A DNA stretch of 64,000 nt from Methylotuvimicrobium buryatense 5G (GTDB lineage: Bacteria; Pseudomonadota; Gammaproteobacteria; Methylococcales; Methylomonadaceae). The notes under the pieces were generated by a model, which saw only the letters and a list, made by a program, of their open reading frames with translations, made no database searches and was not told where the DNA came from. The DNA lies in contig NZ_KB455575.1 of the NCBI RefSeq assembly GCF_000341735.1, forward strand, positions 588,718-652,717, given 5' to 3'. Each line of letters begins with the position of its first letter. Within the stretch, counting starts at the first letter, position 1. Positions 26,699 to 51,049 of the stretch are shown piece by piece. A program made the position numbers and the translations under genes.

Positions 26699-26731
26699 GC
26701 CTTCTTCCTGTCTATCCATAGATATAATTAC

Positions 26732-26760
26732 AAAATATGTCCATTTATGCGCTTTGTCAA
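26732..26760 (-). promoter_or_regulatory. Promoter of the Xre/RES toxin-antitoxin operon
   Basis: On the minus strand, a consensus -35 TTGACA (26760-26755) and a -10 TATTTT (26737-26732) are separated by exactly 17 bp, about 35 bases upstream of the antitoxin ATG. A near-palindrome, TATCTATGGATA, lies between them and the start (26713-26724) and may be an operator. Confidence 0.65.
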
Positions 26761-26870
26761 TCATATCTGACTGCACAAAAAATCAAGCATGCGAGGACCA
26801 TTGAAGCCGTTTGGCGAGGCTATAAGGATTTCGTGATAAATAACGTCCTGTCAAGCGAGTCACCAAACCG

Positions 26871-28782: not shown

Positions 28783-28788
28783 AATAGC

Positions 28789-30557: not shown

Positions 30558-30561
30558 GGAG

Positions 30562-31566: not shown

Positions 31567-31569
31567 AAG

Positions 31570-32430
31570 TCACTCTTGGAAGTAGCTGTCGGATTCGGCC
31601 AGTAATTGTTGGGCTTCTTGTTGCGCCATGGTATTGGAAAGGGACAGGCCCGGCACATTCGGGTCAGCCTGCAGTACTTCGCGCAGCAAACGGTCGTGGA
31701 GATCACGATCATACAGCATCCGAGCATAATTGCGTGCCAAGGCGACCTTGACGGCCAGATCGTTACCGCGCGACAGTTCTATCGCGCGCTCGAAATGGCT
31801 TTTAGCGGTTTCCGGATCGCCGCCCAAAGCCGGCGATAATTGCGAGCGGAGCAGTCCCAGATAGAAATGCGCCCGTCCGGAATCGAAGGACTCGTCCAAT
31901 TCGAGTATTCTTTCGAATAACGATTCGATTTTCGGTCGGTCGGCAATAGCATCCCAATCGCGGCTGTGAGCTTGCAGCCACGAAGCCCAAGTCAGTCCGT
32001 AGGTGTACAGAACATTCAAGGATGCACGATCGGCATTTTGCAAAGCCGGTGCGAAAGCGTCATGAGGCAATCGGTCGATCCGACATAGGGAGTGCCGTTC
32101 CAAACACAGAGCCCGTTCGGCGTAAGCGCGCGCTTTATTGCTGAGGTTACGGGCACGGGACGTCTCCCTCACCAATTCCGATGCATATAATGCATAGAGC
32201 TTAGCGCCGGAAACCAGCAGGTCCGTATTTTCCGGTTGTTGCTCGATCAATCCGTCGGTCATCAATAGATAAGCCGGCAAGCCTTTGCGCACGATCTCGA
32301 TGTCGTTCTGATCGAGAATTGCCGAGGACAGAGAGTCGGAAAGGTTTTGAAGGGAAGCGCTCACGCAGCCCATCAAAAACGCCGATAAAACCGGCAATAA
32401 AATAAATCGGGTTAATTTCGCTATGGCCAT
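31570..32430 (-). CDS. TRAP transporter-associated lipoprotein TatT
   Basis: A 286-residue lipoprotein: the signal ends in the lipobox LMGC, with Cys22 as the lipid-modified residue. The mature part is entirely helical with TPR-like repeats (LVSGAKLYALYASEL, RARNLSNKARAYAERAL, SFDSGRAHFYLGLLRSQLSP, AKSHFERAIELSRG). This matches the TatT family, trimeric TPR lipoproteins that bind the TRAP receptor and may pass hydrophobic ligands to it. It is first in the tatT-dctPQM run, 3 bases ahead of dctP and 155 bases downstream of the thioesterase gene. A hydrophobic substrate is an inference from the family. Confidence 0.88.
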   Translation of the reverse strand: MAIAKLTRFILLPVLSAFLMGCVSASLQNLSDSLSSAILDQNDIEIVRKGLPAYLLMTDGLIEQQPENTDLLVSGAKLYALYASELVRETSRARNLSNKARAYAERALCLERHSLCRIDRLPHDAFAPALQNADRASLNVLYTYGLTWASWLQAHSRDWDAIADRPKIESLFERILELDESFDSGRAHFYLGLLRSQLSPALGGDPETAKSHFERAIELSRGNDLAVKVALARNYARMLYDRDLHDRLLREVLQADPNVPGLSLSNTMAQQEAQQLLAESDSYFQE

Positions 32431-32585
32431 AGGATTATTCAGAAAAATTCGATATTCGGCCGGTCATTATACCTTTATTGATCAGCGAAAGAGTACAGAA
32501 GCTAAAAGCGGATCGCTAAAGAGTAGAATCTATAATCGCTGCTTCGGGGTTGCATAAATTCGGAGTTGAATCCAAGATTGAATTT

Positions 32586-33011
32586 TCAGATTTCAAATTC
32601 GTATAACGCCAAGCGTAGCGATTGAGGAAGTGGCGTAGGGCGCATTGTCGTTCCCTCTTTCATCATAGAGGCGATTTGTTGTTCGCCGCTGGCGATCAAT
32701 TCTTCAGTATTTTCTTGACGGACTCTTAGATAATCAAATTTCATCGTAACGCGATTTTGTGTGATCTGAGTTGCAAACATTTTTATGAGCACTTCGTCCA
32801 ATGCGAACAACTCCTGAAAATATTCGCACGATACCCGCGTCGTTACTAGGCTTAACCCTTGCCCAAGCGCATCGATCACGTCGGGTGCATAATCGCGTAG
32901 AAACATTTCACGTACTCGGCCTTGCCAACGTATATGGTTGGCGAAATAGACATTGCCGACCAAGTTGGTTTCTTCAAAACTAACGATGTGCCGATATTCG
33001 TAGGCTTTCAT
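32586..33011 (-). CDS. Enediyne-type hotdog thioesterase (E10-like)
   Basis: A 141-residue hotdog-fold acyl-ACP thioesterase. The start YRHIVSFEETNLVGNVYFAN, then HIRWQGRVREMFLRDYAP, matches the distinctive YFxNxxRWQGRxREMFL pattern of the enediyne thioesterases (CalE7/SgcE10/DynE7 family). These release the polyene or beta-keto polyene chain from the iterative PKS. The catalytic Asp of ordinary 4-hydroxybenzoyl-CoA thioesterases is replaced in this subfamily, as here. The gene begins 1 base after the PKS stop, so the two are translationally coupled. Confidence 0.9.
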   Translation of the reverse strand: MKAYEYRHIVSFEETNLVGNVYFANHIRWQGRVREMFLRDYAPDVIDALGQGLSLVTTRVSCEYFQELFALDEVLIKMFATQITQNRVTMKFDYLRVRQENTEELIASGEQQIASMMKEGTTMRPTPLPQSLRLALYEFEI

Positions 33012-33012
33012 A

Positions 33013-36000
33013 TTACTTCCCGAATGCTGCCGGCGATTTTGATTGGCGATTTTGTTCGATCAATATCGAAAACATCAATGGCGAAGAAGTGCCTTTGAGC
33101 TTTGCGATGTAGGTGGCAATGACGAAAGGGCCGGCTGTAAAAGTGACCCATCCGTCTTTTTCAGCCGATTGTAAGGTCAACGGGTGATTGGCGCTTGCGC
33201 CTGCTTTTTTCAAGCATTCGATGGCACCCCAAACGCGGGTCGCCGTTCGATCCAGGTTTTCTCCGAATTGTTCGACGGTCAACCGCGCCAATGCAAAGCG
33301 TTCTTTGCCGAGTAAGTCTTCCCACGCGGTAATCGGCCGATCGGTAACGGTTTCTAAATCGCAAGCGACTTGTGATTCGCTTGTAACCGCGAAAACCCAA
33401 CCCTCAGCATGTGCTACGGAAATCGTTCGGCCATCGACGGATTCGGGTTTGCCGTCGCTACGGCGCAAAATAGTGTTTTTATTGCCCAAGGCCAATTTTA
33501 TCGCAGTCTTTGTCGGTTCTTCGGCAACATGGCTGTCTTTGCGTAACAAGACGAAGTTCAAATCGTGTGGTTTAACGATTGCATCAATCTTGCGCTGCAG
33601 ATAAGGCGCAATTAAACCAACATGCCAAGTTTCCCAATCGATGTTCGTAATCTCGCGCAAATGTAGGCCTTGCCAAATTTCTTTCAAAAAGCCCGCATGG
33701 GTTCGAATTTCGAGGTCGTAGCAAAATTCATCGTGTCGTTGCCACCGTTCTCGGGCTAAGACATATGTCGGGCCGTCGATATTCAAGTCTTTCGGTATCC
33801 AGCGTTCTAAGGCGGTGGGTAACACGATTGCATGCGGAATGCAGGCTTGAATTGCGTGGAGGGCTGCATCTCGAGTACCGGGATCGCCTATCAGTAAGGT
33901 TTGCGGCAAAAAGCGGGCAAACCAAGTTTCTTCCGAAAGGTCTGTGCCGATATCGGCAGTACATTGAAATGCGGAAAGCTGCCGATAGGCTTTTACTTGT
34001 CGAAAGCGGCCATCTTGAAAAAATAAAGGGCCGTAAAGTTCGGCGTCCGGGTCGATGGCTATTTTTTGTGGATTAGTTGAATTCTCCTGAGCTGCTTCGT
34101 CGCGATAATTATTCGGACAGGCATCGAATCTTAATATCGCATGGAAGTGATCGATTTGGAATGCGGTCTGGCTGAAACGTAGAGCGACCTCGATGCTCTG
34201 GTCCTCTTTAACTAAAGCAACGGTGCGCAACGTAACGATCTCGTTGGGAGGCACTACGATCGGGTGGGCAAAACGCAAGTCCTGGAAGGAAGGAGTTTCA
34301 GTCCGGCCAGTGACCGACCGGGCTGCTTGCACCATAGCTTCCATTCCGATGACAGCCGGAAAAATATGTTCGCCTTGGTAAACATGATCGTTCAAATAAG
34401 GATCGTTGTTTAATGAAATTTCAGAATCGGTCACTAATTCGATTCCCGGATAAAATAGTCCGGGCTTTTCTATAAATCGAAGAAAAGGTAATTCGTTGGT
34501 CGGCAGAACCGGCAAAGGCGGAGTAATGCCTAAACGGCCGCTTATTACCACGTTTGAACTCGGCAATTCCAAATCCAGCAACCGGTTCAACCATTCGATG
34601 CCTTGTTCCGGCGATATCGGGCTAATCCCTTCACGTAATAAAGTGTCGATACGGCCTAAGCGCTCACCCATGCCGACGCCCGACCATATAGACCATTCGA
34701 GAGAAAGGCAACGACAAGCGGGGTTACGCTCTTTGAACGAATCGGTTTCATGGCTCAGCCAAGCATTCGCCAATGCATAATCTGCTTCGCCGCGCATTCC
34801 AACGCGGCCAATAATCGAGCTGAAGTTAATTAATAGCTTGAGTTTGCCGGAGTCGACCGATGCCAGTAGATGCTTAAGGCCGGATATTTTGGGAGACAAT
34901 GTGCGCTTTAGAATCTCAATATCCAAGTCGTGGATCAATCTGGGCTCATTGACGCCTGCGCCATGTAAAATAGCGGTAATCGCGCCGAATTCGGATTCCG
35001 CTTGCTTTACGGCGTTGTGAATACTATCCGCATCGCCGACATCGGCGGCATAATAGCGGAATGCGATGTCGGCCTCACTGAAACGCATCAGGTTTTCATC
35101 TAACACGGTATCGTTTTCCGGTAATGCGCGTCCCAAGAGTATCAAGCGTAGACCATGCACGCGCGCCAGCGAAAAGGCGCATTCGGCGGCGATGCCTTTA
35201 CCGCCGCCACTGACTAACAGCACATCGCCCGATGTTAATAACGAATTTCCGCTATCGTCGGCAAGAGTGGCAATTAAACGCAAAACCCGTTCCGATCGTT
35301 GTCCTGAACTATCGTAAATCGCTTCACAAAAACCGTCGGCAGCAAGCGTTTCGGCAACAATCCAAGATAACGCTTCTTGGCGATAGGGCGTATCGATAAC
35401 GCTAACGGATAATCCATCGGCTTCTTCAAACAAGGTTCTTGCAAATGCCGAGGCAAAACCGTTGTGCTGAACCAGAATGAAAGACCTTGGCGTTCCGTCT
35501 TGTTCCAACGCGACTTGTGCCGCATCCAACAGTAATCGGTCGTATCCGGAGTCTGGGATGGGAGGGAGACAGAGCAAAACGCCCGTGCCGCCGATCGACT
35601 CGAGCCGCTTTAATAAAGGGGCGGCCAGTATATGATCTTCAGGGGCAAATACACGCCAAGACGAAGGCTGTTGTCTTTGACGGTCATTAGAAGAGGGCTT
35701 GGCTGGCTTTAATTCGCAGGGGCGCTGTTCGATAGTGAAGGCTCTTACCCAATTTTCTAGTCCTTGAGGCGCTGTATGTCGTTCGATATCGGCGTCATTA
35801 TTAACGGTGCGCATCGATTCCAAAAATCGGGCTGCTTGGCCAACGGTGGCGTGTGCGTATTCCGTCGGCGCCAACGAAACCGGCAGATTCAGTTTCCGTG
35901 CGGCGTCGGCCATAATTTGTCCGATGCTGATCGAGTTAAGATGCAAATCCCGTAACAAATGATGTTGGTCTTGAATTTCCGAAGCGGGCAGTTCAACTTT

Positions 36001-38841
36001 TTGAGCCAGCATTTGACGAAGTAACTGTAAAGCGTCGAGGCGTTCGGAGGTTTTCGGTAAAGCCTCATTCCGCGGATCACGGATAAGGGCTTCGGTGTTC
36101 GTTTTCGGCGCCGAGTCGTTTAAACGGTTTTCGATAGTATCTGTTGGTGCTGCCTCGCAAGGGTTGGATAAAAACGACAAGGGTCGTAACGGGTCGAAAT
36201 ACCGTGTAAATCGATCCGCGAACAAGCCTCGGGTTTTGATTGGCTGCCCAAGCGCGTAAGCCGCGCCGATTGCCATGAGCAGCCCTTGTAAAGACGGCCC
36301 CGAGGAATCGAGCGCCACGACAGGCGTGGTGTGGTCGGTTTTAAGTAAGCCGCTGAGTATGCGTCCAGGGCCGACTTCCAGACAAAGATCGCAATGCGGT
36401 AGCAGTTTGGTGAGCGCTTCGGTGAAACGAACCGGAGAAGTTAATTGTTCCCCAAGATGTTTTGGAAAATGAATGTCCGACAAAAAATCGCCGGTTACGG
36501 TCGATACGACGGGCCGGATAATTGAATGAAAATTCTCGGATTCCAGAGACCGGGTCAATTGCTCGGCGGCAAGCGCCATTGAAGGCGAATGAAAGGCATG
36601 TGTAATCGGTAACAGGGTAAATGCAATATCTTGCGCTTGAGCGAGAGTCATCACACGGCGAATGGCATCGGTATCGCCGGCTATCACGCATTGGTTACTG
36701 CTGTTCAAACCAGCAACGACGACGCCGGATTCTTGGCCGATTAGCGCTTGCGTGTTGGCTTCATTGGCGCCTATAACCGCCATTGCACCTTCAGACCGTT
36801 TATCGGCAGACATGATCGCGCCACGCCGGCGAACGATGCGCATCAAAGCCTGTTCGTCTAAAGCGCCAGCCCAATGCAGGGCAGTTAATTCGCCCAAGCT
36901 GTGACCGGCTGCTATTTGCGCTTCGATACCGACGGCGTCAAGTAAGCGCAAGCCTGCGATTTCAGCGAGGGCGATCGCCGGTTGAGCATGACCGGTATCT
37001 TCAGGATCGCCTGGTAGCGGCGGTTGTTGGTCATAATATAAGCTGTCGATTTCGCTAAAGCGTTTGCCCATCGCGCCGCCTGTGAACCGTACAGGCGAAG
37101 CTTGGCCGGGAAATAAAAAGGCGATGCGCGGAGCCGTTTCGCCACAGCCTAAAAACACGCCTGCTTCGGTATCGAATCCGGAGCTTTTTTCTTCGTCAAG
37201 CCAACCGTGCAAAATGCCGAGGTTTTCTTCCAGTTGTTTCGGAGTTGCAGCGACGACAGCAGCGCGGACGCTGCAGGGCTTGATCGCGTTTGTCAGCGCG
37301 GCGGCCAAATCGGTCAATTCGGCATAAGAAAGAGAAGGTGCTAATTGCCGCAAGTGTTCGGTCGATTCGATTAGAGCGACCGGGGTTTCGGCGCAGAAAA
37401 TAAACAACTCGCAATCTTGTCGGCTGCGTATTAGTGCGGTTTCGCGTGACGTTAAGCTTTTTCGGCGAGCCGTCGATGCGCCTTCCAAGGTGACATGTAC
37501 ATTAATACCGCCGAAACCGAAAGAACTGACACCGGCTCTTAACGGCTGTTCTTCTGGCCAGCTAACGCCTGTTTCCAGAAGGCGTAGATTTCCTTGCTCG
37601 AATACCCGATGAGGACTGTCGATGGCGGTGGCGGGTGGTAAAATTTGGCTATGCAAAGCCATGAGTGCTTTTGTGAGTCCGGCCATGCCCGCCGCGGCCT
37701 TGGTATGGCCGATATTGGCTTTTATCGAACCGATCGTTGCGGGTGTTCGGTTGTCCGCCAGTAATTCGGACAAAGCATTCAGTTCGACTTCATCGCCGAC
37801 CGCCGTGCCGGTGCCGTGACCTTCAAACAAAGGCACGGTGCCGATTCCATAGCCGGCTCGCCGGTAAGCGCGTTGCATGGCGAGTTGTTGTCCCGATAGT
37901 TCAGGGCGGGTCATGCCTCCGCTGCCGTCGGATGAAATTCCCCAGCCGCGAATAAAACCATAACAACGAAGCCCCCTGCCTAAGGCTTCGTCATGTCGCA
38001 TTAATAAAGCGAAGCCGCAGCCTTCGCCGGGTAAAAATCCGCTTGGATTTCTATCGTAAACCCGCATGCTGCCGCGGGAAAGAGCGCCGACGCGAGAAAA
38101 ACCGATCAGTTCGAAAGGATCGAGGCTCAAATCGACACCGCCGACCAATGCGGCATCCAAATCGCCCGATTGCAAAGCGGTGCAGGCTTGTGCAACGGCA
38201 AGCAACGACGAACTGCAAGCACCGTCAACGGTAAATCCGCCGCCCTGGAAATTGAAAAAGTTGCAGATTCGTCCCGCTATCGTGTTGGCGAGACCGCCTG
38301 CCAAGGTTTCCTCGCCGACCGGCTCGAAAGGGGCTTTATAATGTTGTTCCATGAGCCGCAAGAAATCGCGGCGTTTGTCGTTGTCCCAACCTTCGGCGGT
38401 CAAGCGTTCGTTTAGCACTCTTTGAACATAGGGCCAGCGCAAACGCATCAAAGCTGCTCGAGAGAACTCTCCGGTCAGCGTATTACCGACAATGACGCCG
38501 GTGCTTTCTTTCGGTAAGCCGATACCGTTCGGCAGACCGGCGTCCTCGAGTGCGCGAGCGGCAATATCGAGCGCCAGCCAATGTGTCGTATCGGTGCTAC
38601 GAAAAGTCGAACCGGCAATGCGGAACTTTTGCCGGTCGAACGAATAACCCTCGAGCACGGCCGCCTCTTTGACGTATATCGAGTCGGAATGCTCGGTCCG
38701 GTTCTCTAAATAGTCCTGCAGGTTGAGCCGTTCGGACGGCAAACGCCTAAACGCGCGGCGTTGGGCTAATACGTTTTCCCACAGCGCTTGCGGCGAGTCG
38801 GCATCGGGGTAACGGCATGCAATTCCGACAATCGCGATCAT
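33013..38841 (-). CDS. Enediyne-type iterative type I polyketide synthase (PKSE)
   Basis: A 1942-residue multidomain synthase, the usual PKSE length. Domains in order: KS (1-455; Cys209 in DGACSSSLL, His342 in EGHGTGT, His379 in NIGHTK); AT (about 570-880; Ser648 in GHSLG, His748); ACP (about 935-1010; phosphopantetheine Ser970 in DLHLNSISIGQ, the enediyne-type motif); KR (about 1180-1420; SGGGKGIA nucleotide loop, Ser1341/1342, Tyr1355, Asn1359); DH (about 1470-1700; His1486 in DHVYQGEHIFP); and a C-terminal phosphopantetheinyl transferase domain (about 1740-1942; D1828 and E1830, E1875, K1878) that would self-load the ACP. I chose the ATG at 38841 because it forms an ATGA overlap with the UnbU stop and begins exactly at the KS; a longer frame adds 29 unlikely residues. 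It should build a conjugated polyene. Confidence 0.95.
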   Translation of the reverse strand: MIAIVGIACRYPDADSPQALWENVLAQRRAFRRLPSERLNLQDYLENRTEHSDSIYVKEAAVLEGYSFDRQKFRIAGSTFRSTDTTHWLALDIAARALEDAGLPNGIGLPKESTGVIVGNTLTGEFSRAALMRLRWPYVQRVLNERLTAEGWDNDKRRDFLRLMEQHYKAPFEPVGEETLAGGLANTIAGRICNFFNFQGGGFTVDGACSSSLLAVAQACTALQSGDLDAALVGGVDLSLDPFELIGFSRVGALSRGSMRVYDRNPSGFLPGEGCGFALLMRHDEALGRGLRCYGFIRGWGISSDGSGGMTRPELSGQQLAMQRAYRRAGYGIGTVPLFEGHGTGTAVGDEVELNALSELLADNRTPATIGSIKANIGHTKAAAGMAGLTKALMALHSQILPPATAIDSPHRVFEQGNLRLLETGVSWPEEQPLRAGVSSFGFGGINVHVTLEGASTARRKSLTSRETALIRSRQDCELFIFCAETPVALIESTEHLRQLAPSLSYAELTDLAAALTNAIKPCSVRAAVVAATPKQLEENLGILHGWLDEEKSSGFDTEAGVFLGCGETAPRIAFLFPGQASPVRFTGGAMGKRFSEIDSLYYDQQPPLPGDPEDTGHAQPAIALAEIAGLRLLDAVGIEAQIAAGHSLGELTALHWAGALDEQALMRIVRRRGAIMSADKRSEGAMAVIGANEANTQALIGQESGVVVAGLNSSNQCVIAGDTDAIRRVMTLAQAQDIAFTLLPITHAFHSPSMALAAEQLTRSLESENFHSIIRPVVSTVTGDFLSDIHFPKHLGEQLTSPVRFTEALTKLLPHCDLCLEVGPGRILSGLLKTDHTTPVVALDSSGPSLQGLLMAIGAAYALGQPIKTRGLFADRFTRYFDPLRPLSFLSNPCEAAPTDTIENRLNDSAPKTNTEALIRDPRNEALPKTSERLDALQLLRQMLAQKVELPASEIQDQHHLLRDLHLNSISIGQIMADAARKLNLPVSLAPTEYAHATVGQAARFLESMRTVNNDADIERHTAPQGLENWVRAFTIEQRPCELKPAKPSSNDRQRQQPSSWRVFAPEDHILAAPLLKRLESIGGTGVLLCLPPIPDSGYDRLLLDAAQVALEQDGTPRSFILVQHNGFASAFARTLFEEADGLSVSVIDTPYRQEALSWIVAETLAADGFCEAIYDSSGQRSERVLRLIATLADDSGNSLLTSGDVLLVSGGGKGIAAECAFSLARVHGLRLILLGRALPENDTVLDENLMRFSEADIAFRYYAADVGDADSIHNAVKQAESEFGAITAILHGAGVNEPRLIHDLDIEILKRTLSPKISGLKHLLASVDSGKLKLLINFSSIIGRVGMRGEADYALANAWLSHETDSFKERNPACRCLSLEWSIWSGVGMGERLGRIDTLLREGISPISPEQGIEWLNRLLDLELPSSNVVISGRLGITPPLPVLPTNELPFLRFIEKPGLFYPGIELVTDSEISLNNDPYLNDHVYQGEHIFPAVIGMEAMVQAARSVTGRTETPSFQDLRFAHPIVVPPNEIVTLRTVALVKEDQSIEVALRFSQTAFQIDHFHAILRFDACPNNYRDEAAQENSTNPQKIAIDPDAELYGPLFFQDGRFRQVKAYRQLSAFQCTADIGTDLSEETWFARFLPQTLLIGDPGTRDAALHAIQACIPHAIVLPTALERWIPKDLNIDGPTYVLARERWQRHDEFCYDLEIRTHAGFLKEIWQGLHLREITNIDWETWHVGLIAPYLQRKIDAIVKPHDLNFVLLRKDSHVAEEPTKTAIKLALGNKNTILRRSDGKPESVDGRTISVAHAEGWVFAVTSESQVACDLETVTDRPITAWEDLLGKERFALARLTVEQFGENLDRTATRVWGAIECLKKAGASANHPLTLQSAEKDGWVTFTAGPFVIATYIAKLKGTSSPLMFSILIEQNRQSKSPAAFGK

Positions 38842-39779
38842 TTTCCGGCACTCTCGGCAAGTTGCGCATTCTGGAACAGTCGTTGGCGGTGTGCGATCAG
38901 ATACAGCCCGGCTCCCCGGCAAGCGCAAACGGCAAATAATGCGATAAACAATCCGAACACGATATTTTCAATCAGCAACAGTGCATAAACGGCGGCAACG
39001 GCCAGGCCGAACAGGATTTGGCGCAATGGGTTTAAAGGCGTCGTGGCCGGATCCGGAATCATATAAAGCGTAAACAGGATAAAAGCGGCGCTGGTCATGG
39101 GAATCAGAGGTACGATCCAAGGAATATCGAAATACCAACTGCGTAGAAAGGCTTGCAGCAAAAAACCGCCGATCCAGGCGATGCATAACGGTAGACGACC
39201 GGTAAAATAAGCATGAACAATAATACCGCTGATTAAAATGAACCCCGGAATAATCCAATGCCAAAGGCCGGTGACGTTTTCGGTGAATTGATAGGGCGGA
39301 GCGAGGCCGATCCATGGAAATAGCAGCAAGGTTACCGTAATACCGAAATTCGATGGATTGAAAATATGCTGCGAACCTTGACCGACAGGCGCCCTAAAAA
39401 CGATTTTGGACGCGATCGATAACGCGGAAGCGAAAATCATCGGCCAAAGCAGTTCGTTCGGATAAATCAGCATACCGACAGCAAGCCCCGGTATTAGGGC
39501 TGGTAGCAAAAAGATAAATCGGTCCGATAAGCTGTTTCCGTATCGCGGCGCGCGTCGGGTCGAACGGCTATCCACCCACTCCAAGAGCCAATGCGTGAAA
39601 CACGCGCTTGCCACGGCGACGATCGGTTGCAGACCGGATTGCTCGAATCCGAGCACGGTATGTCCAAGAATCGTCCAAAGCGTAATGAGAGCGGCAAAAT
39701 AGCCTAATGCGAACAGGCGTAACTTAGGGCTGCCTTTCGGATAAAAAAAACGGGTCGTGATCGTTTCGTTAATATTCAT
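38838..39779 (-). CDS. UnbU-like integral membrane protein (enediyne E5-like)
   Basis: A 313-residue polytopic membrane protein with about nine hydrophobic segments, related to the RnfD/NqrB fold. Blocks include LFALGYFAALITLWTILGHT, HWLLEWVDSR, GQGSQHIFNPSNFGITVTLL and MTSAAFILFTLYMIPDPATT, the last two being typical of UnbU. UnbU/E5 genes accompany PKSE genes in known enediyne clusters; their function is unclear, perhaps redox or membrane anchoring. It overlaps the upstream UnbV-type gene and the downstream PKS by ATGA junctions on both sides, so it is locked into the cassette. Confidence 0.9.
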   Translation of the reverse strand: MNINETITTRFFYPKGSPKLRLFALGYFAALITLWTILGHTVLGFEQSGLQPIVAVASACFTHWLLEWVDSRSTRRAPRYGNSLSDRFIFLLPALIPGLAVGMLIYPNELLWPMIFASALSIASKIVFRAPVGQGSQHIFNPSNFGITVTLLLFPWIGLAPPYQFTENVTGLWHWIIPGFILISGIIVHAYFTGRLPLCIAWIGGFLLQAFLRSWYFDIPWIVPLIPMTSAAFILFTLYMIPDPATTPLNPLRQILFGLAVAAVYALLLIENIVFGLFIALFAVCACRGAGLYLIAHRQRLFQNAQLAESAGK

Positions 39780-41731
39780 AAATTTTCCGCCTCTGCTTCG
39801 CCGAGTATTACAGTGTGCCAGCCCTGTTCGAGGTTGAGCGTCTTACGGTGCATGCTGCCGGCTTGTCCGCGCCAACGCAGTTCAATCTCCAAAGGAGCAT
39901 TACCGGACAGTTTTCCAAGTCCGAAATGGAGATCGGGGCTACGTTGACCGGAATGACCGTTTCCACCGTCGACTTGAGCGACTATTTTTTTTCCATTCGG
40001 TAAATAAACGGTTGCTTGGGCTCCGATTGCCGGATAAGCGGAAATGTCATGATCCGGATGTCCCTCGATAATTCGAGTATGCGCCGAATCGCCGGCGATT
40101 CGAAGGTGTAGACCGATAAAATCGCCGCAGTCAGGGCATTCGTTCCGAAAGAAATACGATCTTTCCCATTGATTGGCTACGACAAAATCCAAGTCGCCGT
40201 CTCCGTCGACATCGGCCACGGCAATGCCGCGACTGACCATCGGATCGTCCAGTTGAAGTTCCGATGCTAAATTGTAGAAACGACCGTCCTCGGCGCGCAC
40301 AAAAAAACCGTTGGCTTCATGGCCACTTAAATCGTCGCCGAGTTTGAAAGAGGGCCAATGCCGAGGATTACTCATCATGCGGTCGTTTCCGGTGCCTAAC
40401 GCTTGCAATTTTGCCCAACGAGGCGTTTCGCCCTTGACGAAACCGGTCGCGACCAGTGCTTCCGGATAACCGCTGTTATCGAAGTCGGCTAGACGCGTGT
40501 CCCAACCCCAACCGGCTCTGGAAAGGCCGAGCTTTTCACTGGCTTGAACATAGGGGGCAACGCCGTCGCGCATGCGTTCCGGCTCGCCGGTGCTCAACCA
40601 TAATAAATTGCTCTCTTGCAAAGCCCATTCGCTGGTGATATTGCTGACGAATAAATCCAATAGGCCATCGCCGTTGAGATCGCCGAAATCGACGCCCATG
40701 CCTTTAAAGGAATCCTGACCCAGCACGAACGATTTCGGCGTGGCGAGGCCCGCTTTACCGCGCAATTCGACCCAATTTAAGCGCCCCGGGGTCGAACGGT
40801 TGTGCAGTAAGCGGTCCGGGCCGAAGTCATGCCCTAAATAAAGTTCCGGCAACAAGTCGCCATCCAAGTCGGCCGCGCCGACCGCCAAGGCCCAGCCGTG
40901 CTCGGTCGCCGGGTCGAGCACGCCGGTTACGGCTCGATAACGAACATTGGGTTGTTCACCGCTTTCGGCACCGTCCCAAAGCAATAAATGCGTTTTGCCG
41001 CCGCTGAACGAGCGGGACTTGGTGTCGTGCATCCGCTCGATGCCTGTGCCGCTTGCATCGAGAATTTGCGCGCCGTCCGAAAAATAGTTGCCGATAACCA
41101 AGTCGATATGGCCGTCGCCATCTAAGTCGGCTAGCGTTGCGGCATTGGTAAACCAACGCTCGTTGCCGGGAAAGATATCCACCGGTTTAAAGCTTTCCGC
41201 GGTGAGACCGGTGCTATCGCCACGCTGTAAAAAGGCGACCGGAGTGCGCCCCCAGTAATAAATGATAGCATCGAGTAAGCCATCCTCGTTGAGATCGCCG
41301 AATAGGCAGCCCATCGGCGCCATCGTCGCGGCATCGAATGCCACGGGCGCCGGATGCAATTCGAATGGCGTATAGCGTTCGCCGGTTTCCGGAACGGGCG
41401 CGATGATAACCGAATCGAAGCGCGGATCGACATGGCAGAGATCGTTCGGCAGGCCGTCGCCGTCAAGGTCGCCGAGCGCAACGCTCGCACCGACCGATGA
41501 GATCCACGCGGAAATATGTTCCAAGCTTGGATGAACGTTTCTTACCGAACGCGGGTTTTTTCCGGACGGCTCCGGTAACGCCAAGCGGGTAAAGTCGAAG
41601 CGTCCGGCGATGGCTTTTCGTTCCGAAGGGCTCAAGCTCGGCGGTTGCATAAAGCCGTAAAGAAGGCCGATCCAAACCAGGGCGGCCAACAGCGTCGCGC
41701 GGCGGCGTAGCAGTGGATAAATGCTATTCAT
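39776..41731 (-). CDS. FG-GAP/UnbV (ASPIC) repeat protein (enediyne E4-like)
   Basis: A 651-residue secreted or membrane-anchored protein. A hydrophobic N-terminal segment (ATLLAALVWIGLLYGFM) is followed by at least seven calcium-type FG-GAP motifs (DLDGDGLPND, DLNEDGLLDA, DLDGDGHIDLV, DLDGDLLPELY, DLNGDGLLDLF, DFDNSGYPEA, DVDGDGDLDFV), a beta-propeller. The C-terminal ASPIC/UnbV domain (IGAQATVYLPNGKKIVAQVD, then GGNGHSGQRSPDLHFGLG) closes it. I chose the ATG at 41731 for the AGAGGA ribosome binding site; 38 bases separate it from the DUF1702 stop. E4 proteins are conserved beside PKSE but biochemically undefined. Confidence 0.92.
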   Translation of the reverse strand: MNSIYPLLRRRATLLAALVWIGLLYGFMQPPSLSPSERKAIAGRFDFTRLALPEPSGKNPRSVRNVHPSLEHISAWISSVGASVALGDLDGDGLPNDLCHVDPRFDSVIIAPVPETGERYTPFELHPAPVAFDAATMAPMGCLFGDLNEDGLLDAIIYYWGRTPVAFLQRGDSTGLTAESFKPVDIFPGNERWFTNAATLADLDGDGHIDLVIGNYFSDGAQILDASGTGIERMHDTKSRSFSGGKTHLLLWDGAESGEQPNVRYRAVTGVLDPATEHGWALAVGAADLDGDLLPELYLGHDFGPDRLLHNRSTPGRLNWVELRGKAGLATPKSFVLGQDSFKGMGVDFGDLNGDGLLDLFVSNITSEWALQESNLLWLSTGEPERMRDGVAPYVQASEKLGLSRAGWGWDTRLADFDNSGYPEALVATGFVKGETPRWAKLQALGTGNDRMMSNPRHWPSFKLGDDLSGHEANGFFVRAEDGRFYNLASELQLDDPMVSRGIAVADVDGDGDLDFVVANQWERSYFFRNECPDCGDFIGLHLRIAGDSAHTRIIEGHPDHDISAYPAIGAQATVYLPNGKKIVAQVDGGNGHSGQRSPDLHFGLGKLSGNAPLEIELRWRGQAGSMHRKTLNLEQGWHTVILGEAEAENL

Positions 41732-41769
41732 ATTGCTGGTATCCTCTAAGGTGAGGCTGCGATACAGGC

Positions 41770-42711
41770 TTAAATAAAGTGTCGCCGTATCCGTTGCCGC
41801 CAATGTTCGTAAGCCGGCAGCGCGTTATCGGCAGGCACTTTCCGCAAGGCATCGTCCGTTAATTGCGCGGCATGTTCGGCGCTTAAATTGCAAAAGATGC
41901 GGCAGGCCAGCTTGGTATGATCGGCCGGATTGCCGGCCCGTTGTCGGGCTTTGGCTGCAAATGCAGCGCCTTGAGCGAGATGCGCAAGAAAGTCGCCGGC
42001 CAAAACTTTCAGACGCTCTAAATCGTCCGGTTCGACACCGCCGGCATAAGCGCCGGCCAAGCCGACGCCGCTCCACAAGTCGCCCTGCCTATCCGTCGGA
42101 AAGTCTTGCAGCGCCGATACGATACGCTCGGGATCGGCTCCCATGACGAACCACAGACTGCGTCCTAAACCTTGGTCGAAAGCCCTCTTTTCATAGCCTT
42201 GTAGGCATGAAGGACGCTGTTGACGGCCGATACTGTCCGGCCAATGAAAATAGCCTTCGTGGAAGCCGTAACCGTCAAGGACCAGCCAACGGAGTAGGCA
42301 GTCCATGCGCGAGGTCAGGCTTGCCGGCGACACCGGCAAGCGGGCCAAAGCCCAACCGGCGCCGACATGCAACATATAGGCGTGATGCTGCGCCGGGCCT
42401 GTCAAAAATGCTTGAAAACGGCTCGGTCGCCACGGGCAAAGGAAATCCGATATCACCAAGCCCATCGCGGCACCTTCGAAGAGGAAACCGCGCAATTCGT
42501 TGTCGTCGATTGCGTTCAAATGCTCGGTAAGGCGCAACGGATCGTTATCGAGCAAGGCGGCATGATAACCTTCGACAAAACTCTTGCCGATGCGCTCGAT
42601 TCGCGCCTTGACCCGGTCGTCGCCGACCTTGAAACCGCGCAGTTCGATTCGGGTTTCGGCATCCGAAATGCCGAATAAAGCGTGTCGGCAGCGTCCGAAA
42701 AATGCAACCAT
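41770..42711 (-). CDS. DUF1702 family protein (enediyne E3/UnbL-like)
   Basis: A 313-residue soluble helical protein matching DUF1702. Signatures are RIELRGFKVGDDRVKARIER, GKSFVEGYHAALLDN, ELRGFLFEGAAMGLVISDFL, a central HHAYMLHVGAGWALARLP, WLVLDGYGFHEGYFHWPDS and the RSLWFVMGADPERIVSAL block. DUF1702 proteins (UnbL, E3) are the first members of the minimal enediyne cassette and of unknown biochemical role. This is the first gene of the five-gene operon. Only about 37 bases separate its start from a terminator hairpin, so its promoter must be short or overlap that hairpin. Confidence 0.9.
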   Translation of the reverse strand: MVAFFGRCRHALFGISDAETRIELRGFKVGDDRVKARIERIGKSFVEGYHAALLDNDPLRLTEHLNAIDDNELRGFLFEGAAMGLVISDFLCPWRPSRFQAFLTGPAQHHAYMLHVGAGWALARLPVSPASLTSRMDCLLRWLVLDGYGFHEGYFHWPDSIGRQQRPSCLQGYEKRAFDQGLGRSLWFVMGADPERIVSALQDFPTDRQGDLWSGVGLAGAYAGGVEPDDLERLKVLAGDFLAHLAQGAAFAAKARQRAGNPADHTKLACRIFCNLSAEHAAQLTDDALRKVPADNALPAYEHWRQRIRRHFI

Positions 42712-42748
42712 AGAAAATTTTTATCGTTATTAAAGCCAAAAGCTTAGC

Positions 42749-42772
42749 AAAAAGCGCCGAAGGACTCGGCGC
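42749..42772 (-). terminator. Rho-independent terminator of the PEP-CTERM gene
   Basis: On the minus strand GCGCCGA, loop GTCCT, TCGGCGC, then TTTTT: a perfect 7-bp stem with a U-tract. It lies just 3' of the PEP-CTERM gene and just 5' of the DUF1702 gene, separating the two transcription units. Confidence 0.85.
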
Positions 42773-42784
42773 ATAGTCTTACGC

Positions 42785-43735
42785 TTAAGCGAGGGGTTTG
42801 CGGCGATGTTGCCAGCCGAACAATGCTAGTCCTGCGGACAGTAGCATGAATGTGGTTGGCTCAGGGACAGTATGTGTGGCGCTAATTACGGATACTGATA
42901 GTTGTTGTGGTTCAAGTTCAGTTCTGTCGGGTTTGATGAAATACAAATTAAGAGGCAAAGATTCAACATCTGCATCAAAAGTACCGATCGATGGATCTCC
43001 AGCGCTTACTTTACCCAAGCTAACATAGGTTGTACCTTTAGGAGGCGGAACATCATCCAATAAATCAAATGCCATTCGTAATGCATAACTATCTAGAATG
43101 CTATCGCCGGATAAATCACGGACATCGTTACTCACTACCTCCCCTACATCAACAATGCCATCGTTATTGAAATCGATCCATACGTCAAAGAAGATATCGA
43201 AGATACTGTTTGCAGGAAAGTCTATAATGCCATCAGTTGGTGAACCGGCTAAGTCTTGGATTTGCCCGCGAGAGTGATCGAGACCTATAGCGTTAAGGTC
43301 ATCGAAAAAAGACCAGCCTTGCCCAACTCGTATTTGAGCGTCATAACCAAGAACCTCTCCAATGAGATGAAGACTTATCATTTCAGTCATGATGGTATCA
43401 AACTCATTCTGCTCGAACGGCGTTCGGTTGCAATTAGCTATTTCACCAGGAGAGATGCAGTCGCGAATCACCTGTGTTGGGCCAGTGCCATAAAAACTTA
43501 CTTGCTGTCCATTTATGGTAAGCCCTTTGACACCTCTAGAACCAAAGCTATCTGTAATATCAAACGGTTGTTCCCAAATAGCTGCGGCATTGGAATCAGT
43601 TGATAACAACGTGGCAACCAATGCAAATGGTAGAGCGAAATATTTTAAGTCGCGAAATACTTGAGTACTTGATAGATAAGAGTGATAAAAAGACCGCCTT
43701 GTTTTATAGGACGAAAGATTAAAGAGTAAGAACAT
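42785..43735 (-). CDS. Secreted PEP-CTERM protein
   Basis: A 316-residue exported protein: a long signal region (hydrophobic YFALPFALVATLLS, cleavage near SNAAA), then an acidic mature domain, and a C-terminal PEP-CTERM sorting signal (VPEPTTFMLLSAGLALFGWQ ending HRRKPLA). The PEP-CTERM tail is recognised by an exosortase. Two Asp-rich calcium-type loops, DFNNDGIVDVGEV and DLSGDSILDSYAL, lie in the middle. I chose the ATG at 43735 for the GGGGGAG ribosome binding site; an upstream in-frame start would add a non-signal extension. It has its own terminator. The role is unknown but likely extracellular. Confidence 0.85.
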   Translation of the reverse strand: MFLLFNLSSYKTRRSFYHSYLSSTQVFRDLKYFALPFALVATLLSTDSNAAAIWEQPFDITDSFGSRGVKGLTINGQQVSFYGTGPTQVIRDCISPGEIANCNRTPFEQNEFDTIMTEMISLHLIGEVLGYDAQIRVGQGWSFFDDLNAIGLDHSRGQIQDLAGSPTDGIIDFPANSIFDIFFDVWIDFNNDGIVDVGEVVSNDVRDLSGDSILDSYALRMAFDLLDDVPPPKGTTYVSLGKVSAGDPSIGTFDADVESLPLNLYFIKPDRTELEPQQLSVSVISATHTVPEPTTFMLLSAGLALFGWQHRRKPLA

Positions 43736-43953
43736 AACTCCCCCAAATTTTTTAAAATTGAAGTCAAGTTTCAACGAAAATCGATATAAGTTGCTTTTTC
43801 GCCATGTGTTAGCATGAGTGTCTATTCGCCAACAAATTAAGAACACACAATATTGATACCAAAAGGCCTAGGTCATACGGTGCGTCATTGTGCTTGTCGC
43901 ACGATTCAGGCGGAACGTAGCGTTAACGACCGTTATTCAACAGTAGCAAAACG

Positions 43954-44412
43954 ATGAAACGACAAGATCTAAGCCATAATCGTCTGGTGCTTATCGAGAC
44001 GTTAAATAAATATTTAAATAAATCGCGATCCGCGCGTTTTCAATATCGATTACAGATCTTGATTTTAGCGACGGCGGGACTGAGTTACGAACGGATTGCC
44101 CAATGTTTCGACATCAGTATTCGAAGCGTTCAACGCTGGGTGCGTTTTTACCGAATATTCGGACTGGAAGGCCTTAAGGATGACAAGAAGACCGGTCGGC
44201 TTACCGTTTTGAAACAAGACGAGAAGCTCAAGGTGAAGCTTGATTTGTCCCATTCGCCGATCGAGTTAGGCTATCGGGATCAAAGCTGGAGCGGCGGTTT
44301 ATTGAAATCGCATTTACACGAAAACTATGGCGTTAATCTCAGTCTTAGGCAATGTCAGCGCATATTGAAGGATTATCGAGACGATTTAAACAGTAAGGAG
44401 CCTGCGCCATAG
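43954..44412 (+). CDS. Stand-alone IS630-type helix-turn-helix protein
   Basis: A 152-residue protein equivalent to the N-terminal winged helix-turn-helix half of IS630-family transposases. ILATAGLSYERIAQCFDISI and RSVQRWVRFYRIFGLEGLKD form the first helix-turn-helix; the second half (LLKSHLHENYGVNLSLRQCQ) is the typical HTH_32 block. The catalytic DDE domain is absent. It is either a truncated transposase or a domesticated DNA-binding protein. The stop is 2 bases before repeat family A copy 4. Confidence 0.75.
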   Translation: MKRQDLSHNRLVLIETLNKYLNKSRSARFQYRLQILILATAGLSYERIAQCFDISIRSVQRWVRFYRIFGLEGLKDDKKTGRLTVLKQDEKLKVKLDLSHSPIELGYRDQSWSGGLLKSHLHENYGVNLSLRQCQRILKDYRDDLNSKEPAP

Positions 44413-44413
44413 T

Positions 44414-44573
44414 TATACCCATCGCAGATCAAAACTCGGAACCAGGGTGTTCGTCAAAGGACGCCGTGAATACATTCCTGTAGACTCTATGTCAGCTCCA
44501 TGCTGGCAAAGCCTTTGCCGCACACCCTGGCGCCTCCTCAGGCACTGCCAAAATTTGAAGTGCGAAAGGTATA
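44414..44573 (-). repeat. Dispersed palindromic repeat family A, copy 4 (inverted)
   Basis: A 160-bp element from TATACC to GGTATA, in reverse orientation relative to the other copies. It includes the internal hairpin (on its own strand TGCCAGC ... GCTGACA, one mismatch) and the core inverse of GGCGTCCTTTGACG. It abuts the stop of the IS630-type gene. The remaining gap to 44843 holds nothing I can identify. Confidence 0.85.
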
Positions 44574-44843
44574 ATGGTTTTGCGACAAGTATTTTGTCGC
44601 TAGTACTAAAGTACAATTGACTTGTTACTGAGCGGAATAAAGATTATGTCGATCTGTAAAAATTATGGACATTCCGGCATCGTTTGTGTGGATGTGTTTA
44701 TTATACCTTTACGTTTCCAATCTAACGGCGTAGCTTTGAAGTTATCAATGATTCAGCAAAACAATACCTTAGAAGAATAAGTCAATTCGAGTTGTCTGCC
44801 TAGAGTGTAAAAAAAGCTGACAGTTAGCCCGGCTAAATTGAGC

Positions 44844-47189
44844 TCATTTGCGATTATTCGCATCGCCGTCCCACAGCATCAATAAAGGCGGCAGCAGTAA
44901 TAAATCCAAGAACAAGGCGATGGTTAGCGTTATCGCGGTCATTAACCCCATTTCCGAATTTATCGTAAAAGGCGAAAAACTCAAGACGATAAATCCGCAG
45001 ATCAAAACCGCTGACGTGATCCAGATCGCTTCGCCGACGGTCGAAAAGGCGTGTCGTATTGCCTCCCTGCAGCCATAGTTTTTTTCCAGTCGTGCATGCC
45101 GGTATTTGCTGATGAAATGAATCGTATCGTCGACTACGATGCCAAGCGTGATGCTTGCCACCACGGATAGGCTCAAACCCACGCGCCCGTCGATGAGCGC
45201 CCAAATACCGAAAGCGGCAATAGAAGGCGTTAAATTCGGAATAATGCTGATAAGTCCTAAACTTAGCGAACGAAATGCACCGATTAGAATAAACGAAATA
45301 AAGACGAGTACGAGCAAGGTTCCTGTAATCATGCTGCGGATATTGCGTTGCCCGACATGGGCGAACATCAATGCCGTGCTGCCGGTTTCAATGTTCGTTT
45401 CCGGCATGTCGGTTTTTAACCATGCTTTCGAGCGCGATTCGAATGTCAGCATTTGTTTAGAGCTCAAATTCTTCAAGGTGACGATGACCCGCGTACCCGA
45501 TTTATCGGCGTTGATTTGATCGTTTAAGTCCAAGCCGTATGGCAACGACAATTCGTACATTAAAAGGTATTGAGAGGCGAGTTCGCGCCGGTCGGGTAAA
45601 GCGTAATATTTCGGGTCGTCGTCATGCATGTTTTTATTGAGTCGTTTGAATATATCGGTCACGGTATTGACATGCACGGTTTCGGGTTGTTTTTTCAGCC
45701 AATCGTTAAATCGGTCGAGATTTCGCAAAAAAACGGGTTCTTGTACTCCGCCTTCCTGTTGAGTATCAAGCGAATATTCGATCGTGTATATGCCTCCGAG
45801 ATGTTGGCTGAGAAAATCGGTGTCTTGCCTGAATTCGATCGATTTCCCGAAATAGTTGACGAATTCGTCGTTCAATTCGTTGTCGGGTGCATAGCCGATC
45901 AGAATCATGGCAAGCAGACCGTTGATCGGTAGCAATGCTTTACGATAACGGATCACGAATATGGCCAAATGATGCATGGGCCTTTCGGTACGTTGTTGTT
46001 TTAACCGGGGTCTTATTGGCAATAGCGTTATCAGCGAGGGTAACAACGTAAGTGTTAAGAATAGCGCAGCCGCAACGCCGGTTGCGACGATATTGCCGAA
46101 GTCCCTAAAAGGAGGCGCTTCGCTGAAGTTCATGCCGAGAAACCCGAGCATCGTACTAACGCTGGTGAGTAAAATCGGCTGAAAATTCGAGTGTAGGCTT
46201 TCTTGAATGGCTTGTTTTTTTTCTTGCCCCGCCTCCATATTTTGACGTATCGCAAGCAATACATGGAGGCAGTCGGCTACCGCAACCGTCATGATGATGG
46301 TCGGCGCGACCGCCGAGGTAGGCGTTAAGTGGCCATGAAACCATCCGAATGTTCCTAACGCGGAAGCCATTGCCAACATAATGAGCAAGACGACGGCGAA
46401 TGTCGCCGATAGCGATCTCAAGCTTAGCCATAATACCCCAATGATAACGCTATACATCAGCGGCAATAATTTCAGATTATCGCTCATCGCCACCTCAACA
46501 AAGGCATTACTCATCATTGCTATGCCGCTGATTCGAATTTTAACGCCGGGATATTGACTCTCGATTTCGCCTGCGAGCTTTCGTGCTCGTTCGGCAAGAC
46601 GAATCGATTCCATCGGGCTTTTTCCAGGCAAATGCACATTAACATTGACGCCTGCGACATGGCCGTTTACAGATACCAGTCTATTAACCAGCAGGGGCTC
46701 ATTCAGTGCCGTTTTCTTTATGGATAGAATTTCGGTTTCGGTCAAAGCCTTCGGGTCGGGAATCAAGTCGGCGATGATTATGTTTTCGTTGTCTGAATAA
46801 CTATGTTGAAAATTAACGATAGAATCGACTCTGCTCGCATAAGGAAGCTGCCAGGCGGCTTGAGTCAATTGCGCGATGGCCTGAAGGGAGGAAAGATTAA
46901 AAATGGAATCGTTCGGCGGTTGAATGACAAAAAATACGCTATCGGTTCTATTATAAACGGCCTCTAAGGCCTCAAAAGCAAGAAGCCGCGGATTTTCCTT
47001 GCTGAAATAGACCCGTGAATCGCTATTGAACCCAAGATTCATCGCGCCGGACGATAATGCAACAACGACCGAAAAGACAAGCAAAAGAACGCGCCAAGGA
47101 TAATACGTTACCCAGTGTGACAATCTATGACTGACGCTTTTCCAAGGCATATAAATGATTTGTTGTTTGAGGTTGGCGAGATTGTGCAT
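44844..47189 (-). CDS. MMPL/RND-family transporter
   Basis: A 781-residue membrane exporter with about 12 transmembrane segments and two large extracytoplasmic loops. TM4 and TM10 carry the paired acidic signatures TIIMTVAVADCLHVLLA and GIVVDDTIHFISKYRHARLE, which relay protons in RND pumps; each half has the usual sterol-sensing-domain-like fold. MMPL-type members export lipids, hopanoids and polyketides. It lies on the same strand as, and about 2.1 kb upstream of, the enediyne-type cassette; a link is possible but not shown. It is a single gene with repeats on both sides. Confidence 0.88.
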   Translation of the reverse strand: MHNLANLKQQIIYMPWKSVSHRLSHWVTYYPWRVLLLVFSVVVALSSGAMNLGFNSDSRVYFSKENPRLLAFEALEAVYNRTDSVFFVIQPPNDSIFNLSSLQAIAQLTQAAWQLPYASRVDSIVNFQHSYSDNENIIIADLIPDPKALTETEILSIKKTALNEPLLVNRLVSVNGHVAGVNVNVHLPGKSPMESIRLAERARKLAGEIESQYPGVKIRISGIAMMSNAFVEVAMSDNLKLLPLMYSVIIGVLWLSLRSLSATFAVVLLIMLAMASALGTFGWFHGHLTPTSAVAPTIIMTVAVADCLHVLLAIRQNMEAGQEKKQAIQESLHSNFQPILLTSVSTMLGFLGMNFSEAPPFRDFGNIVATGVAAALFLTLTLLPSLITLLPIRPRLKQQRTERPMHHLAIFVIRYRKALLPINGLLAMILIGYAPDNELNDEFVNYFGKSIEFRQDTDFLSQHLGGIYTIEYSLDTQQEGGVQEPVFLRNLDRFNDWLKKQPETVHVNTVTDIFKRLNKNMHDDDPKYYALPDRRELASQYLLMYELSLPYGLDLNDQINADKSGTRVIVTLKNLSSKQMLTFESRSKAWLKTDMPETNIETGSTALMFAHVGQRNIRSMITGTLLVLVFISFILIGAFRSLSLGLISIIPNLTPSIAAFGIWALIDGRVGLSLSVVASITLGIVVDDTIHFISKYRHARLEKNYGCREAIRHAFSTVGEAIWITSAVLICGFIVLSFSPFTINSEMGLMTAITLTIALFLDLLLLPPLLMLWDGDANNRK

Positions 47190-47329
47190 GAAAAATTTAA
47201 ATGCACAAACTGAAAGTTATTAACGGTAAAAGGTAATTTAAAAATTCTGTCTAAAATAACTTTCGGATTTTGCTCCCTTGTCCTTCGGGATAGGAATAGT
47301 CCTTGGCAGGAGGACGGTTTTTCAATTAA

Positions 47330-47530
47330 GGATTTGGCCGTAAATAACTTCCCTATTTTAAGGAGGGTTCGGTTGCTCGATTGGCAGGTGTCAGCGGCAG
47401 GGCAGATTTTTGCTCCTCGGCAATTGCTCCTGCATTGCCCTAATACACGTCATCCATGGCAATCAGTCACCGCCGTCAAGCCTGCACGGACGTATTCACG
47501 GTTTCCTGTCAAGCGAGTTACCGAACCCGC
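47330..47530 (+). repeat. Dispersed repeat family B, copy 3
   Basis: It opens GGCCGTAAATAACTTCCC and matches 21225 onward for about 90 bases, including CAGGGCAGATTTTTGCTC. It ends with a stretch (GGACGTATTCACGG) that also resembles the core of family A, so it may be a mosaic. The gap 47190-47554 holds this element and no gene. Confidence 0.7.
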
Positions 47531-47554
47531 TATAAAACTCATAGCATCAGGAAG

Positions 47555-48370
47555 TTATTTTTGACACTGTTTGCAAAAAACCGAGCTTCTGTTGGCGATG
47601 CGGATTTCGGTGAGCGGCGTTAAGCAGGTGCGGCAGGGCTCTCCGGCTCGTCCGTAGACTTGCAATTGTTGTTTGAAATATCCGGGTTTTCCGGTTTCGT
47701 TGACGAAGTCTCTTAGCGTCGTGCCGCCTTGTTCGATTGCGCTGCTCAAAACCGAGCGGATACAGTCGGCGAGCGTTCGATAACGGGCGAGCGATATGAG
47801 GCCGGCAGCGCGGGTCGGTTTGATGCCGGCCATGAACAAGGCCTCGTTGGCATAGATATTACCGACGCCGACCACGATATGGCTGTCCATGATGAACGAT
47901 TTGACCGCAAGGCCTCGCTTTTTAGACAACCGATAAAGATAGTCGCCGTTAAAATCGGTTAGCAGGGGTTCGGGGCCGAGTTCTTTCAACAAAGGATGCT
48001 CGGTAATCGCTTCGGAAGTCCACAGCACCGCGCCGAAGCGTCTCGGGTCGTTGAAACGCAGTATCGTCGTATCGGAAAACACCCAATCGACATGGTCGTG
48101 TTTCTTGATTTCTTGTTCGCGGTTGACGATGCGTAGACTCCCCGACATACCCAAATGAATGATCAGCACGCCTTTTTCGGTGTGCAGCAATAAATATTTT
48201 GCCCGCCGGTCGACTCGTTCGATGCGAAGTCCGTTCAATAGGCGATCTAAACGGTCCGGCACCGGCCAGCGCAGGCTCGCTTGGCGTACCACCGTTTCTT
48301 GGATGGTTCTGCCTTCGATATGAGGCTTGATGCCTCGGCAGGTTGTTTCGACTTCAGGTAATTCAGGCAT
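47555..48370 (-). CDS. mutM: Formamidopyrimidine-DNA glycosylase
   Basis: A 271-residue Fpg/MutM. It excises 8-oxoguanine and formamidopyrimidine and nicks at the abasic site. The start MPELPEVETTCRGI gives the catalytic N-terminal Pro (after Met removal) and Glu; Lys in the AKYLLLH strand is the usual third residue. The helix-two-turn-helix GVGNIYANEALFMAGI precedes a C-terminal zinc finger CRTCL ... FCKQCQK. Length is normal. It is separated from the next minus-strand gene by 42 bases. Confidence 0.97.
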   Translation of the reverse strand: MPELPEVETTCRGIKPHIEGRTIQETVVRQASLRWPVPDRLDRLLNGLRIERVDRRAKYLLLHTEKGVLIIHLGMSGSLRIVNREQEIKKHDHVDWVFSDTTILRFNDPRRFGAVLWTSEAITEHPLLKELGPEPLLTDFNGDYLYRLSKKRGLAVKSFIMDSHIVVGVGNIYANEALFMAGIKPTRAAGLISLARYRTLADCIRSVLSSAIEQGGTTLRDFVNETGKPGYFKQQLQVYGRAGEPCRTCLTPLTEIRIANRSSVFCKQCQK

Positions 48371-50765: not shown

Positions 50766-50868
50766 GAACCGGCTTAACCAGGCCGGTGAAAGTGTTGTAG
50801 CCCCTTCATGCTTCGACTTTACTCAGCACGAACGGTCTACAACACATGCCAACTGCTCTTTTTAGGAT

Positions 50869-51029: not shown

Positions 51030-51049
51030 AATGATAACCGAGTCACTCG

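Follow-up and report, generated by a model that had tools for sequence, protein, structure and literature searches.

Analysis of a 64,000-nucleotide stretch of Methylotuvimicrobium buryatense 5G (contig NZ_KB455575.1, positions 588,718 to 652,717; hereafter the window, numbered from its first letter) revealed a block of about 15.1 kb in which a five-gene cassette of the enediyne polyketide synthase (PKS) type, E3-E4-E5-E-E10, is accompanied by genes for a secreted PEP-CTERM protein, here called the partner, and for an MMPL-type exporter. The KS phylogeny and profile matches showed the cassette to be real and intact in this methanotroph, as a preliminary description of the DNA had claimed. It is proposed that the block is an island gained or lost as a unit, and that a polyene would be made by its enzymes, exported, and held outside the cell by an exchangeable beta-barrel partner; taken as a whole, we regard this reading as evenly balanced between right and wrong.

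Genes of the core cassette

The preliminary description had placed the five genes on one strand, joined by 38 nt, ATGA, ATGA and 1 nt, and all coordinates and joins were reproduced, on the minus strand. E3 (41770..42711) is a DUF1702 protein over its full length (Pfam, 6.5e-123). E4 (39776..41731), of the UnbV type, is an FG-GAP repeat protein matching FG-GAP_3 (2.9e-30) and UnbV_ASPIC (6e-13); it starts with an ATG at 41731, the frame being open further 5' from a TTG at 41803, and it has an N-terminal hydrophobic stretch, which a simple hydropathy count also gave for 44 of 48 E4 sequences. E5 (38838..39779), of the UnbU type, is a multi-span membrane protein with seven hydrophobic stretches, distantly like NqrB/RnfD. 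Its sole Pfam match is weak (NQR2_RnfD_RnfE, 1.9e-7), and its identity to the E5 of related cassettes is mostly 42-75%, with 30-36% in three Chloroflexota loci. Profile searching did not refute the earlier assignment of these proteins to DUF1702, UnbV and UnbU.

E (33013..38841), the 1942-aa synthase (PKSE), carries the Pfam domains KS, AT, PP-binding, KR and PKS_DH, with the catalytic residues C209, H342, H379, S648, S970, Y1355 and H1486 at the positions first reported. The KS-AT-ACP-KR-DH part of the earlier domain claim stood; the PPTase is putative, its motifs being recognised by eye only, and no Pfam PPTase family matched at 1e-3. E10 (32586..33011), a hotdog ACP-polyene thioesterase, matched Pfam 4HBT_2 and, at 1e-34 to 1e-36, the PDB entries 'ACP-polyene thioesterase', CalE7 and DynE7, and scored 117-128 bits against six enediyne-type thioesterase sequences. 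For placement in the 9- or 10-membered enediyne subgroup, the AT of DynE8 and the E10 structures made up the characterised comparators; the DynE8 AT is 40% identical to the window AT and 28-47% to those of other PKSEs. The Pfam and PDB E-values of the cassette genes rule out chance matches. E3 is predicted with very high confidence to be all-helical (predicted local distance difference test, pLDDT, 96.6); a second look at its list of PDB matches gave no informative one, and a new fold is possible.

That the host is a methanotroph is in keeping with one AMO/pmoA-family gene (1.6e-134) in its genome of 5.07 Mb in 2 contigs. An enediyne-type cassette in methanotrophs is already published and not new. 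PMC8788690 (this and the other papers cited by PMC number were available in part) describes the five-gene set from E3 to E10 in another methanotroph, Methyloprofundus INp10, where its transcription was 'low to very low'; a database search in that paper, citing Rudolf et al. 2016, gave homologs in two Methylotuvimicrobium species. In PMC5181780, where 10 enediyne clusters are compared, these five genes are the ones that all of them share.

Phylogeny and distribution of the cassette

DUF1702 was found in 8 of 301 Methylococcales genomes, two of the matches (G083, G289) being weak or partial. Among GTDB contigs, an E3 relative was encoded in 519 of 572 candidate stretches, of which the best 80 were retained and analysed as named loci. 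By title these come from Methylococcales, other Proteobacteria, Cyanobacteria, Planctomycetota, Verrucomicrobiota, Acidobacteriota, Chloroflexota, Myxococcota, Bacteroidota, Bacillota and Actinomycetota.

A KS tree was built from 63 rows (50 PKSE, 5 PUFA-type and 8 other KSs; midpoint root, bootstrap not fully settled), in which the PUFA (polyunsaturated fatty acid) label denotes the score to the PfaA model (581-877 bits), two of the five rows exceeding the curated cut-off. The window KS, for which a PUFA or other iterative origin had been the alternative, fell inside the 50-row PKSE clade, split at 100/100 from the 13 PUFA-type and other KSs, and paired with Candidatus Methylumidiphilus (97/94). 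It lies outside the separate clade that the four actinobacterial rows make up (100/100). Methylococcales KSs as a whole require two changes on the tree; on this sequence comparison, a single origin within Methylococcales is neither shown nor excluded. Enediyne-type KSs are on record for Proteobacteria, Cyanobacteria and further phyla in PMC10308959, where every one of the 11 MIBiG enediyne KSs shares a lineage with actinobacterial sequences.

Some loci depart from the common pattern. The KSs of a Rhizobium-labelled contig from a metagenome-assembled genome (MAG; L035) and of the cyanobacterium Microseira wollei (L038) are nearly identical, with branch lengths of 0.017 and 0.022, through either mis-binning or recent transfer. 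Four to six tandem or near-tandem DUF1702 matches occur in L077, L088, L094, L096 and also L093, four of these five having a different type I PKS alongside (27-28% to E); L077, L088 and L094 have KSs that lie outside the PKSE clade. DUF1702 may act on products besides enediynes. Cassettes of the form E3-E-E10 are present in L048, L049 and L059, with E4 and E5 not found within the locus. On an anammox-labelled contig of a Candidatus Kuenenia stuttgartiensis MAG (L101), E3-E4-E5 is followed by an E10-like open reading frame (ORF; 31%), and no PKSE match was found within the locus.

The 15-kb block

The cassette occurs in two of the six listed genomes of the genus; DUF1702 is absent from the other four, one of them only 79% complete. 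Three of these four were examined, and all three contain an empty site: the counterpart of 28783-32479 is separated by 252, 77 and 79 nt from that of 47555-47559 onward, the TRAP genes there being succeeded by fpg within these distances. The block absent from the sister genomes (32480..47555, ends approximate) consists of E10, E, E5, E4, E3, the PEP-CTERM gene, a 152-aa helix-turn-helix ORF and the MMPL gene. The PEP-CTERM and MMPL genes, which lay outside the earlier five-gene description, come and go with the cassette. The block may have been gained in two genomes or lost in the others.

The second genome with the cassette (G090) belongs to a sister species. Because the entire aligned 34 kb is already 98.3% identical between it and the window, a recent exchange of the block between the two species is not pressed. 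The core genes, the MMPL gene and two TRAP genes show a synonymous divergence of 0.004-0.027, and fpg one of 0.110.

The absence of DUF1702 from four of the six genomes, and the low transcription in the relative Methyloprofundus (PMC8788690), would also suit a silent or decaying relic. However, all frames are open and the catalytic residues intact, and the ratio of nonsynonymous to synonymous change (dN/dS) against G090 is below 1 in E (0.18) and E5 (0.08), the values for E3, E4 and E10 resting on at most 2 changes of each kind. Together with the preservation of the aligned stretch in two species, this makes a relic very improbable.

The exporter of the MMPL/RND type (44844..47189, minus strand) was identified by Pfam. 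In G113 the gene after E10 is 43% identical to the exporter gene, the locus order there being partner-E3-E4-E5-E-E10-MMPL, and relatives at 22-31% are present in 6 of the 80 named loci.

No tailoring gene was recognised among the main ORFs of at least 130 aa in 32480-47555, the rest of the genome not being searched. Because the block is without a recognisable tailoring enzyme, the product, judging from gene content, would more likely be a polyene, polyyne or enediyne-type core, either bare or with simple modifications, than a decorated enediyne. A true enediyne warhead, with its tailoring enzymes encoded at other sites of the genome, would be in line with the presence, intact, of all five genes common to enediyne clusters (PMC5181780). 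Against this stand the 60 ORFs of the dynemicin cluster (PMC8725005), compared with no recognisable tailoring enzyme here, and the position of the window KS outside the actinobacterial clade, since the 11 MIBiG enediyne KSs group with the actinobacterial lineage (PMC10308959); we consider a warhead improbable.

The PEP-CTERM partner

The partner gene (42785..43735, minus strand) is the immediate upstream neighbour of E3, on the same strand and separated from it by 73 nt. It encodes 316 aa from its ATG, the frame being open from a GTG at 43846, with a leader read from the sequence, a mature domain at 42866-43585 and a tail matching PEP-CTERM (PF07589, 7.5e-6). The host has an exosortase gene (PF09721, 5.5e-56). 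Proteins of the same build are encoded upstream of E3 in G113, G125, G099 and L022, one of them with a variant tail.

Between the sister species the mature domain of the partner differs as a swapped unit. In the comparison of the window with G090 the first 261 nt are identical; the mature part (720 nt) has 155 substitutions and 33 gap positions, the tail with its stop (81 nt) has 2 differences, and the 73 nt to E3 have none, while the flanking enzymes differ by 0 to 1% at the protein level. No second partner copy was found in either genome at E 1e-3, and because neither holds another copy the donor of the exchanged domain was probably outside both. The dN/dS of the partner gene (0.23) is consistent with old diverged alleles under constraint, without signs of recent positive selection. 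A similar picture was seen in three Okeania MAGs, whose E3, E4 and E5 are 93-99.7% identical. Between E4 and E5 they carry 3, 3 and 5 ORFs of more than 150 aa, of which 2, 3 and 4 are partner-family members with leaders and tails alike; long cross-strain matches among these are at 27-50%, except that two proteins of L028 match one of L029 at 93 and 82%.

A profile of the partner body alone, with tail and leader removed (34 rows), detected the family in 27 of the 80 named loci, the nearest member lying at most 700 nt from a core gene in 26 of them and 1,056 nt away in L068; since 20 of the 27 had supplied profile rows, the independent share of this count is small. Grouped by phylum from their titles, the positive loci are Cyanobacteria (10/15), Planctomycetota (5/10), Verrucomicrobiota (4/9), Methylococcales (3/5), other Proteobacteria (3/8), Acidobacteriota (1/9) and one unassigned (1/1), with none in Chloroflexota (9 loci), Actinomycetota (8), Myxococcota and Deltaproteobacteria (3), Bacteroidota (2) or Bacillota (1). 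The partner position varies among cassettes, being upstream of E3, between E4 and E5, or after E10. In a Phycisphaeraceae locus (L072), several short PEP-CTERM ORFs in succession upstream of E3 fell below the profile threshold, being too divergent.

In whole genomes of Methylococcales the partner was found in 7 of 301, that is in 6 of 8 with DUF1702 versus 1 of 293 without; five of the six are profile seeds. In the sixth, G209, the match is on a different contig, and the E3 contig stops 776 nt upstream of E3. In Cyanobacteriales the partner occurs in 5 of 195 genomes and DUF1702 in 6 of 195, three being shared, on the same contig in each (Fisher p 0.0002; 0.003 without the seed genome G441). 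Of the three shared genomes, G546 and G639 supplied no profile rows and have partner matches 1.4 and 2.1 kb from E3; with no more than 75% identity between their E3 regions and any of the 80 loci, both are independent of the seeds. In the order of G418 the three strong matches are all seeds, four DUF1702 genomes lack the partner, and four genomes without DUF1702 give weak matches in large proteins. For 50 loci chosen from the 80, a match was present in 24 of 49 genomes; several have many matches, those of G430 mostly in one long frame.

No Pfam or NCBIfam model matched the partner body at cut-off in the ten members scanned. The nearest match was the floc protein PepA (NF033554), weak, for L004 and L022 (22 and 16 bits against a cut-off of 80), and none was found for the window partner at 1e-3. 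The partner profile had no sequence match among PDB chains up to E 10. For the predicted model of the partner, which is of low confidence, the top structural match was DynF (PDB 6ubl), followed in the list by others including lipid-, hormone- and carotene-binding proteins; a DynF-like fold, in which an eight-stranded barrel has a hydrophobic cavity, is possible. DynF has palmitate bound and has been proposed to bind the heptaene (PMC8725005).

These data may also be read differently: the cassette makes a polyene- or enediyne-like product, and the PEP-CTERM protein is an unrelated surface or matrix protein of the same block that diversifies under phage or predator pressure. Constant ends around a changed middle fit diversifying exchange, related domains are found where DUF1702 is missing, with many matches to a genome, two members weakly resemble a floc protein, and the dN/dS points to old diverged alleles, not adaptive change. 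On the other hand, the family recurs beside or inside cassettes of several phyla at differing positions, it tracks DUF1702 across Methylococcales genomes (with the weight of seeds noted above), and the closest listed fold is that of an enediyne-pathway protein. We take an unrelated surface protein to be a real possibility, though with the weight of judgement tilted against it. The wider proposition that many non-actinobacterial cassettes encode an exosortase-sorted, DynF-like extracellular barrel for polyenes or enediynes, with the binding domain exchanged between strains and the other parts constant, is held tentatively and is rather unlikely.

Proposed pathway

In the proposed scheme of synthesis, export and retention by the partner, a linear C15-type polyene would be assembled by the PKSE on the ACP that it carries and then freed by E10, as judged from the characterised families, in which PKSE and thioesterase yield a linear heptaene (PMC8725005). 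E3 and the membrane-side E4 and E5 would convert the polyene further. The late steps may take place at the membrane, as the hydrophobic N-terminus of E4 and the hydrophobic stretches and weak NqrB/RnfD match of E5 suggest. To our knowledge, no reactions have been assigned to E3, E4 or E5. The MMPL protein, with its homolog behind E10 in G113, could export the lipophilic product. The partner, a putative beta-barrel, would be secreted and processed by the exosortase of the host; outside the cell it would bind the hydrophobic product or display it, its binding domain being exchanged between strains as a unit. A terminator-like hairpin between the partner gene and E3 (42754..42772, minus strand) might allow the partner to be made in excess; it is a consensus match only, has identical letters in the sister genome, and such sites are no more numerous than in shuffled sequence.

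Other features of the window

The helix-turn-helix ORF of the block (43954..44412, plus strand), a possible remnant by ORF reading, is presumably transposase-like. It is abutted inside the block by a dispersed repeat of about 160 nt (44413..44575), with other copies at 16670-16835, 50867-51032 and 58437-58589 and further ones scattered in the sister genomes. Two overlapping minus-strand ORFs at 25582-26776 read like a RES-domain toxin and Xre-type antitoxin pair.

Comparison with known systems

The actinomycete cassettes of C-1027, calicheamicin and dynemicin have the same five genes and the same PKSE domain order. The window differs from them in its KS, which lies outside their clade, and in its 15-kb block, which is without recognisable tailoring genes and carries an exosortase-type secreted partner and an MMPL exporter. 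The cassettes of Methyloprofundus INp10 and of the two Methylotuvimicrobium homologs (PMC8788690) are the same and also belong to methanotrophs; in the available part of that paper, the partner, exporter, block boundaries and allele exchange are not mentioned. It was also the one paper found on PEP-CTERM and enediyne together, the two being unconnected in that part. The non-actinobacterial KSs of PMC10308959 include PKSE clade members in Proteobacteria, Cyanobacteria and other phyla; that work is based on KS domains and, in the part available, describes no partner protein. Block boundaries, partner family, mature-domain exchange and the possible DynF-like fold were not found in the literature searched, which covered open-licence papers.

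The compact block of five core genes, exporter and partner is well suited to studying the products of enediyne-type cassettes from outside Actinobacteria and the functions of E3, E4 and E5. A natural comparison is offered by strains that have or lack the block at one site, and the variable secreted partner gives a lead, open to direct test, to the destination of the product.

DynF (PDB 6ubl) and the window partner share 10% identity and no sequence-profile match, the partner model being of low confidence; we know of no PEP-CTERM tail in DynF. Enediyne apoproteins of the CagA and NcsA type are secreted proteins that hold a hydrophobic product. The same role is proposed here for the partner, which differs in being exosortase-sorted and has no PDB sequence match up to E 10. 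If the proposal is true, the barrel partner would be the functional counterpart of the actinomycete apoproteins, and the producer would display or deliver its product on the surface with variable specificity.

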